Shown here: positions 36,247 to 38,265 of the stretch, in pieces
Layout of the letters: each line of letters opens with the position of its first letter
How positions within the stretch are numbered: the first letter of the stretch is position 1
Assembly: GCF_018873765.1 (NCBI RefSeq)
Contig: NC_057926.1
Span: forward strand, 56,247,378-56,311,377
Length of the DNA: 64,000 bases
From: Telopea speciosissima
Taxonomy: Eukaryota > Streptophyta > Magnoliopsida > Proteales > Proteaceae
Reading direction: 5' to 3'
Program-made: the position numbers and the translations under genes
Notes under the pieces: model-generated
The model's database searches: none
The model's input: the letters and a program-made list of their open reading frames with translations, nothing else
Told to the model about the DNA's origin: nothing

Positions 36247-37401
36247 TCACCTATCTATGAACCACTCAGGTGGTTCCCTAAAAAATAATTCAGTCCTCGA
36301 CCGTAAAGCCCGTAAGGCCCTCGAAGCAAGTTGGCAAGACACTTGAATTGACATTCTTCGATCATGGAATATTTGAGCCCAACTAAATTCAGAAAGAAGA
36401 TCAGTAATCATTGTAAGAATATTTTCCAGCCTTTGATGATGAAAAGATTGCGGCGGCCTTTCTCCTCCTCCAGTAATATTATTATTAATAGCATCAACTA
36501 GCTCCTTTGCATTAGAAACCAAAGCAATATGTTGATTAATACCTTGCACACGACGAGCTAATTGCAACCCACTAAGAATGGTTTTTGCTTCTGCTTCAAT
36601 GCTATCTCTTGCATTGTCCAGTAATTTCCCTTCGATAGCAATAAATTCACCTTTAAGATTTGTCAAGTATCTCCCATAAGCATTTTTGTCTGAATTTTCA
36701 AAAAGTGCAAAAACGCGTACTACATAGGTTGGCGGATCCGTGTATGCCAGCTCCTCCTGTGATTGGGAGTGAGCACCTCCCGCAATTTGATCAAACTTAA
36801 AACTTGTCTGCATCGATTTATAATAAAGTAGTCATTAGTTAAAGAAGATATAAACCAAGCAGAATAAATGAATCAAAGATCCTATATAGAATAATATAAG
36901 TAGCTGAGTTACCTGTAGTACATGTCTGAGTGAGCGCAAGCTCTCAGTATAGAAACTGAAGGATGGTAAGTTCCTTTTGCGAGAATAACACTTAGTAAAA
37001 CTTGTGGTTTGGAGATGGTAACAATAGAACGAACCTCTAAATGTGTCAAGAAGCACCTTAATACTCCAGGCATCATTGCCATCCTGTATTATGTCAATAG
37101 GAACATAAGGAGGCGTACCATAAACAGAATCCACCAAAGGAGTCAAATCAATACTATACTCTTTTACCCATGTCGTGGTGGTAGAAGTAGTAGTACGACG
37201 AGGAGGAGGAGGATGAGTCTCACCCTCACCATAGTGGTGGTGGTCTTTATTCAGCATCCATATGTCCATTTTGTTACCTGCAACACATGAAAGGCAGAGT
37301 AACCCTCTTAGCTCCACCAATTGGAGACCCTTGGAATGACGGATAGTTTTAAGATCGGGACACCCACTAGGACGTGGGATGAGTCTAAATTCTTCACTCT
37401 C
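36247..37401 (-). pseudogene. Continuation of the F-box gene beyond the stop: FBA remainder, intron, RNase H-like C-terminal exon
   Basis: Beyond the TAG the same frame runs open to 36913 and encodes the rest of an FBA domain: ESEEFRLIPRPSGCPDLK, GLQLVELRGLLCLSC, MDIWMLN, WVKEYSIDL, and FYTESLRS near the end. Exon 1 (36913-38265) is 1353 nt, an exact multiple of three. A consensus GT-AG intron of 105 nt follows (36808-36912; CAG|GTAACT to GATGCAG|ACA) in phase 0. Exon 2 (36247-36807) encodes 186 residues resembling the plant RVT_3 RNase H-like domain: SIEAEAKTILSGLQLA, GINQHIALVSNAKELVDAI, and DLLSEFSWAQIFHDRR. The catalytic first Asp (DGS) and second Asp (TDS) appear lost, replaced by ENS and SNA, so catalysis is unlikely. 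The stop lies about 10 bp from a segmental duplication boundary. The splice prediction is convincing; a functional fusion protein is not proven because of the TAG. Confidence 0.65.
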
Positions 37402-38265
37402 CTAGTTGAACGACAAGATTGACTTTTCGATGTCGATCATAACTTCGGGGTGGAGTTTATGATCGATGAGCCAGTGAAGAGATCCGTCTATGAAAACCGG
37501 ATATTGTTCATACAAGACATGGTATGGGGATTTTCCTACTAGTTTCCAAGCCCAAGGAGAAGCATAAGAAGAAGGAGAATCCTTTGTCATCCCCAAAGTG
37601 AAAACTCTACATTCTGTATATTCTGTTGGGGAATAGACAAAGCAATTAAAGAAAGGACGGACTAAATGTACAAATTTATACTCATTAGTAGATTCAACGT
37701 ATCCAAAACCGAAAGAACCACCACCGCGATTGTTGTAAAGTGGTGGCAATGTTATGAGTTCGTGTGTTGTTGGATTGCAAACATGAATTCCTACATTGGA
37801 ACTGAAACACAACAGATCAAAGCGGGTAGGCAACGCCCAATAGCAATTGCTGTTTGTCGACGACATCTCCATATGATCGAATTTGAATCTACTTAACACC
37901 CTACCATCTTCAATGTCGAGGGAATATATATCAAAACTTCTATCAAGAACATGATGTGGATATGATACGCAAAAGCGAAGAAGATCAGGTGAATAATGTG
38001 ATTGATGATGATGATGATGATGATGATGATGTTGATGATGATGATGAGATTGCAAGCGAATGAAAAGAGGATCACTGGATATAATATCAAGCCATCGTTT
38101 ATTTCGGCACTTAAACCTGAGGAGGGACTTCACGGGAAGCCATGAAAACACTTGGAACAACACATCTTCTGTTGTTGTTACCACTATTAATGGATCATCA
38201 TTTCGCCTATTAATCCTCCTCCTCCTCTTCCGAGGACCACCTCTGGTATTAATCTTCTTCTTCAT
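37402..38265 (-). CDS. F-box protein with FBA-type domain, upstream portion ending at an in-frame TAG
   Basis: F-box proteins dock to SKP1 in SCF ubiquitin ligases and present substrates. This 287-residue frame starts with a basic stretch (KKK, then RKRRRR at about 12-17), possibly a nuclear signal. The F-box follows at about 31-72 (EDVLFQVFSWLPVKSLLRFK, then RWLDIISSDPLFIRL). A histidine-rich run, encoded by an ATG/CAT trinucleotide repeat at about 38001-38048, follows. The start of an F-box-associated domain comes next (ICNPTT-like HVCNPTTHELITLPP, GFGYVESTNEYKFVHL, GSLHWLIDHKLHPEVM, then DIEKSILSFN). Family members normally continue beyond ILSF with an EFRLIP-type segment. Here a TAG stands at 37402-37404, and exactly that segment follows in the same frame. 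It is either a recent nonsense allele or a truncated protein. Confidence 0.85.
   Translation of the reverse strand: MKKKINTRGGPRKRRRRINRRNDDPLIVVTTTEDVLFQVFSWLPVKSLLRFKCRNKRWLDIISSDPLFIRLQSHHHHQHHHHHHHHHQSHYSPDLLRFCVSYPHHVLDRSFDIYSLDIEDGRVLSRFKFDHMEMSSTNSNCYWALPTRFDLLCFSSNVGIHVCNPTTHELITLPPLYNNRGGGSFGFGYVESTNEYKFVHLVRPFFNCFVYSPTEYTECRVFTLGMTKDSPSSYASPWAWKLVGKSPYHVLYEQYPVFIDGSLHWLIDHKLHPEVMIDIEKSILSFN
38001..38048. repeat. ATG/CAT trinucleotide repeat inside the F-box gene
   Basis: A nearly uninterrupted run of about 15 trinucleotides encodes a polyhistidine tract just after the F-box on the minus strand. Repeat-length change here would keep the frame and vary only the number of His residues. 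Confidence 0.85.

Follow-up and report, generated by a model that had tools for sequence, protein, structure and literature searches.

The DNA analyzed here is a 64,000-nt window of the Telopea speciosissima genome (C11:56247378-56311377), within which we examined the minus strand of positions 36247-38265. This strand carries an exon that specifies an F-box and an F-box-associated (FBA) domain, followed, across a short intron, by an exon that specifies an RNase H-like C-terminal extension (Table 1). Exon 1 begins with an ATG and is read in a single frame to ...SLRSLRHVLQ, where it meets the donor CAG/GTAACT. Its F-box, which lies upstream of an in-frame stop, scores 24.6 bits against the Pfam F-box model (PF00646; cut-off 20.5), and with the stop written as X the exon scores 66.7 bits against NCBIfam TIGR01640 (F_box_assoc_1; cut-off 37.9). 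Pfam FBA_3 (PF08268) reaches 18.2 bits in the same exon, short of its cut-off of 20.7, and the 3' half of the exon, searched alone, matched no Pfam family at E ≤ 1. The histidine-rich run that follows the F-box corresponds to a gap in most of the relatives that tblastn aligns there. Among the other features of the window, the RVT_3 remnant on the plus strand probably derives from an old retroelement.

Table 1 Features of the 64,000-nt window (positions are those of the window)
Feature	Position	Strand	Basis
Exon 1, F-box and FBA domain, 451 codons including one in-frame stop	36913..38265	-	direct reading, Pfam/NCBIfam matches
F-box domain, residues 33-69	38059..38169	-	Pfam match
His-rich run, residues 74-87, after the F-box	38005..38046	-	translation, tblastn alignments
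FBA domain, residues 150-382, split by the stop	37120..37818	-	TIGR01640 match
TAG stop in frame, codon 288 of 451	37402..37404	-	direct reading, ORF list, family comparison
Intron, phase-0 GT-AG, 105 nt, 27% GC, CTAAT branch-point-like motif, in-frame stops	36808..36912	-	sequence, paralogue comparison
Exon 2, 186 codons plus stop (TGA), RNase H-like C-terminal extension, ends PPEWFIDR	36247..36807	-	translation, Pfam, alignment
RVT_3 (RNase H-like) match, exon 2 residues 44-164, profile 15-123 of 123	36316..36678	-	Pfam
FAE1/type III polyketide synthase-like (3-ketoacyl-CoA synthase)	22052-23647	-	Pfam
Ribose-5-phosphate isomerase A	44751-45608	-	Pfam
Mem_trans membrane transporter, auxin-efflux type	51372-52790	-	Pfam
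RVT_3 remnant, 16.3 bits, under cut-off 21.6	60079-60486	+	Pfam
Tandem repeat of a 263-base unit, two copies, 95% matches	33131-33652		

The sequence-only reading had joined an uninterrupted 451-codon exon 1 to exon 2. The exon coordinates and the joining of the frames were borne out by our analysis; the open exon 1 was not, codon 288 being a TAG in the one assembly on which this stop rests. In the frame of exon 1, the list of open reading frames gives two separate stretches, one that ends in the TAG (37402-38334) and another that covers 36835-37401, and the TAG is the sole stop that we found in the joined 637-codon frame. A sense codon occupies the corresponding position in all 13 of the family regions that reach it (18 were searched, 5 of them without coverage there). 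The window copy thus fails to offer an open frame across both exons and, given the in-frame TAG, cannot make the 637-residue protein.

The arrangement recurs elsewhere in the genome. A search of the T. speciosissima assembly (823 Mb, 1287 contigs) with the exon 2 protein returned 25 matches, counting that of the window, at E ≤ 0.01. Around the matches outside the window we took 18 regions, ten of which fall in the 45.6-56.0 Mb stretch of C11 and the others on C9 (five), C10 (two) and C5 (one); because L041 and L042 are parts of one C9 locus, approximately 9 kb apart, the 18 regions make 17 loci, and a single region (L050) holds two copies of exon 2. In 15 of the 17 loci tblastn located exon 1 upstream of exon 2 and on the same strand. 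A possible sixteenth is L045, where pieces of exon 1 lie just beyond the region taken, and L051 is a 3' fragment. Counting the window, 7 of 18 loci have an open exon 2 and in 11 it is broken, split, internally deleted or fragmentary, and both exons are open in three (L037 at C11:50.98 Mb, L038 at C11:56.00 Mb and L039 at C11:53.07 Mb). The spliced proteins of all three exceed the Pfam cut-offs for the F-box (36.1-38.9 bits) and for RVT_3; the cut-off for FBA_3 (20.7) is reached in L037 (23.1) and missed in L038 (15.1) and L039 (14.2). The seven open copies of exon 2 are 76-94% identical in DNA. Further exon 1 matches included two more C11 loci, one whose exon 1 is disabled and leads into a remnant of the beginning of exon 2 (L055; 26 profile positions, E = 1.7e-7) and the other a close copy of exon 1 that ends inside the FBA part (L056); in the 1.7 kb past the last match of the latter, itself a truncated copy, exon 2 is absent. 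Judged from these genomic copies, an F-box/FBA protein with an RNase H-like tail is a real architecture that is inherited across a family and is not a fresh event in a single gene. At one C9 locus (L020, positions 1954-2166; C9:45.71 Mb), a fragment that by eye is like a ribose-5-phosphate isomerase gene lies beside a decayed exon 2; an isomerase gene also lies near the F-box gene of the window, which suggests that a segment carrying both was duplicated.

The sequence-only reading had placed a 105-nt phase-0 GT-AG intron between the two exons, joining them in frame, and this part of it holds: the signals in the window are good (GTAACT...CTAAT...ATGCAG, with the CTAAT close to the 3' end), and the donor and acceptor recur in the paralogues. 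In particular, the donor is [CA]AG/GTA in the family copies compared, the exception being L050 (CAT/GTA), and the acceptor CAG keeps its position in those copies whose match begins at the exon border, while the intron itself differs in length among the six copies measured (105, 108, 125, 156, 447 and 655 nt). Splice sites that are kept while introns differ make the pattern of a used intron, from which we infer that the family intron is spliced between exon 1 and exon 2.

Exon 2 had been likened to RVT_3, a resemblance that is well supported. Searched against PF13456, the window exon 2 scores 31 bits (cut-off 21.6, E = 2.7e-7), and each of the seven intact family exon 2s matches the same model at E up to 1, the best at 7.5e-15; the scores in the window copy and L037-L039 span 31-52 bits. 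Consistent with these matches, hhalign paired a profile of the seven exon 2s with one built from four RNase H-like domains from the same genome, at a probability of 95.9 (E = 5.9e-9). The Pfam and hhalign results, together with the codon models described below, rule out exon 2 as random sequence. Solved structures, searched with a profile of the exon 2 family, gave three matches that we judged to be chance, namely a de novo TIM barrel (E = 0.0036), a DUF507 protein (E = 0.1) and an autotransporter (E = 0.12), and a single-sequence AlphaFold2 model of the window copy had a mean pLDDT of 46.8, too low for a reading of the fold.

The catalytic carboxylates of active RNase H are D-E-D-D. We aligned the seven open exon 2s with eight RNase H-like domains from the same genome, which we take to be LINE-type and from which the four in the hhalign profile were drawn. 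The first catalytic Asp is absent from all seven exon 2s, the third is non-acidic in six and Glu in L035, and all seven have Cys or Val for the fourth; the catalytic Glu is kept in six and is Asp in L035. In the window copy, where the catalytic Asp residues had been read as replaced, all three Asp positions are indeed changed and the Glu is kept. The exon 2s of the family thus fail to present the D-E-D-D set of an active RNase H, and their RNase H-like domain appears to be catalytically dead.

When the 5' half of exon 1 served as the query, a second group of F-box loci emerged, located chiefly at C5:58.7-58.9 Mb and C1:69.3 Mb and approximately 40-47% identical, of which we examined three (L052, L053 and L054, on C5 and C1). 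L053 qualifies as an ordinary F-box/FBA gene: its F-box, FBA_1 (PF07734) and FBA_3 (22.3, cut-off 20.7) matches are all over their cut-offs, and a stop lies nine residues past its FYMESL segment. The F-box frame of L054 is itself interrupted. The exon 2 profile matched none of the three within approximately 1.7 kb (L052 and L053) or 1.2 kb (L054) past the F-box frame, and in the same search it matched every one of the 18 family regions (six had contributed to the profile). In the exon 1 tree, the three sister loci are split from 16 loci that bear exon 2 with a support of 100. Given that exon 2 is absent from these loci on other chromosomes, a single, old gain of exon 2 is the simplest account of the sequences, though it may alternatively have been lost in the sister group. 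That a segment of the RNase H family was captured to extend the C-terminus, as the sequence-only reading proposed, therefore stands for the family, with 17 more loci carrying the segment and none of three sisters, and falls as a fresh event in one gene; a retroelement is a plausible direct donor. A side observation concerns L052, where a donor-like CAGGTATGT lies at approximately 1291-1299, near the position of the family intron donor; as L052 is without exon 2, an intron at this point may predate the gain of exon 2.

The strongest challenge to a fused protein is that exon 2 is decaying, retroelement-type sequence that sits beside F-box genes, was duplicated with them, and is untranslated and joined to them only on paper. 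The proportion of damaged copies given above is in keeping with this, as are the pairwise NG86 ratios of exon 2, which range from 0.63 to 1.14 and are near 1 for many pairs; moreover, differences are spread nearly evenly over the three codon positions (800/672/728). To these can be added the comparison of the window with L042, in which exon 2 (92.3% identical over 466 bases) diverges at the pace of the 3' flank (93.3% over 526), so that no constraint is visible between these two copies. (The first 400 bases of the 3' flank align poorly for the pairs first tried, and the flank serves as a neutral yardstick for this pair.) Against it stand the divergence of the intron with splice sites held, the seven copies that stay open at the DNA identities given above, and a strong heterogeneity among sites. 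Codon models were fitted to exon 2 copies that had been chosen for being open, with code that we wrote ourselves and checked on 108 codons by simulation, 20 times under neutrality and 20 times under M1a. Over 168 codons, log likelihoods were -2200.83 for omega = 1, -2197.85 for M0 (omega 0.70), -2167.66 for M1a, with 42% of codons at omega 0.11, and -2143.04 for M2a, with 6% of codons at omega of approximately 9. When codons within three of a gap were removed, leaving 108, M1a placed 41% of codons at omega 0.10, and twice its log-likelihood gain over omega = 1 was 30.6, compared with a maximum of 2.1 in the 20 neutral simulations. The heterogeneity persists on 168 codons when the window copy and L040 are left out (34.9 for the same comparison), with an M0 omega of 0.78 that is just 2.0 from omega = 1 on that scale. 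We consequently hold it improbable that exon 2 is untranslated debris, even though its high mean omega (0.70, and 0.78 in the reduced set) means that much of it looks relaxed.

The same models bear on diversification. On the 108 masked codons, M2a improves on M1a by 16.3 (twice the log-likelihood difference), compared with maxima of 7.7 in the neutral and 3.7 in the M1a simulations. Exon 2 residues 37, 41, 69, 166, 172 and 173 were assigned to the diversifying class at a posterior above 0.9; the last three of them sit in a gapped stretch. A warning about this extra class comes from exon 1 (four copies, 414 codons; M0 omega 0.57), where M2a assigns it an implausible omega of approximately 105. 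In addition, the block that holds exon 2 is 92% identical between L039 and L040, whose outer flanks are 83-85% identical, which suggests gene conversion; conversion between neighbors can inflate site-model tests, and it hurts the claim of diversification more than that of constraint. Exon 2 thus looks like a constrained core with a few possibly diversifying sites, under selection that is at least partial. PMC3719486 reports that in plant F-box proteins the C-terminal interaction domain is under positive selection. For the same pairs among the window copy and L037-L039, synonymous divergence in exon 2 was below that in exon 1 (for example, 0.27 versus 0.43 for L038/L039), possibly through gene conversion or a different mutation rate.

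With respect to the window copy itself, the proposal that it acts as an SCF adaptor is blocked by the TAG, unless the TAG is an assembly error, is an allele that is not fixed, is spliced out or is read through. That the TAG is the lone stop in an otherwise continuous frame would fit a functional gene whose stop is erroneous, confined to one allele or bypassed, so that the full 637-residue protein is made. However, the subclade to which the window belongs in the exon 1 tree (with L041/L042, L034 and L046; support 96) is disabled in four of four loci, by the TAG in the window, by splitting on C9 and by stops or frameshifts in L034 and L046; exon 2 of the window evolves at the rate of the flank relative to L042; and since the TAG lies inside the FBA match, its removal by splicing would cost sequence of that domain. 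We therefore think a functional window copy quite improbable. Even harder to credit is a truncated protein of 287 residues, with an F-box and half an FBA domain, that acts as a dominant-negative adaptor: the F-box upstream of the TAG does exceed its cut-off, but a stop codon far upstream of the last splice junction, as here, normally triggers nonsense-mediated decay, and the subclade shows ongoing decay. Least credible of all is a separate gene with a start of its own at an ATG that stands six bases ahead of the acceptor, since that ATG, in frame directly before exon 2 in the window (ATGCAG), is missing from L011 and L023 (AAGCAG; the same loci as L035 and L048) although their CAG acceptor stays, and exon 1 precedes exon 2 in nearly all of the other loci; we rejected a transcript of its own for exon 2 on the unconserved ATG and the conserved acceptor. 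On the sequence evidence, a young pseudogene is the likeliest identity of the window copy, whose FBA domain a nonsense codon interrupts midway.

Our findings make it likely that these genes constitute a subfamily of F-box proteins, serving as SCF adaptors, with a domesticated and catalytically dead RNase H-like recognition domain, of which the window holds a recently disabled member. According to this model, an F-box/FBA gene, of a kind whose relatives end a few residues past the FYTESLRSL segment, would have acquired a further coding exon that brought in an RNase H-like domain; most of the catalytic acids of that domain would have been lost, as judged from every surviving intact copy; and the fused gene would have multiplied, mostly on one chromosome, to leave three copies that keep both exons open. 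In the intact relatives, SKP1 is the predicted partner of the F-box, and a surface for binding targets would be formed jointly by the FBA domain and the dead RNase H fold, such that the family would join SCF complexes and probably marks proteins for destruction. The tail may instead bind nucleic acid, a candidate role to which the sequence lends no particular favor.

The family resembles plant F-box/FBA proteins in that even the window copy is over the cut-offs for the F-box and F_box_assoc_1, and differs from them in that an additional exon, joined in phase 0, carries an RNase H-like domain. It likewise resembles LINE-type RNase H (PF13456), exon 2 matching both RVT_3 and the RNase H-like profile from the same genome, but lacks key catalytic Asp residues and is fused to an F-box protein. 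In its domain table, PMC4759884 lists RVT_3 among the domains integrated in NLR immune receptors, in seven species. The same Pfam domain is thus joined to a plant recognition protein in both cases; the receptor there is an NLR and here an F-box protein, and we draw the comparison as a parallel only. By analogy with integrated decoys of NLRs, the dead RNase H could be a diversifying target-recognition module of clustered SCF adaptors engaged in an arms race, a doubtful extension of the model, as is the suggestion that its targets might be, for example, retroelement or pathogen proteins. The S-locus F-box (SLF/SFB) genes are similar in being clustered and of the FBA type, with possibly diversifying sites; we know of no RNase H-like tail in SLF.

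F-box proteins diversify through changes in their C-terminal recognition domain, and a C-terminal change in such a protein is in itself a known kind of event. A search of the open-licence literature, mostly of titles and the starts of abstracts, gave no report recognizable as describing an RVT_3 tail on an F-box protein. What the family seems to record is the addition of a retroelement-type RNase H domain by way of a new exon, followed by the loss of its catalytic residues and by spread with the gene, under selection that is at least partial. Because intact fused genes (L037, L038 and L039) exist alongside relatives without exon 2, the contribution that the added domain would make to the choice of target is directly testable.
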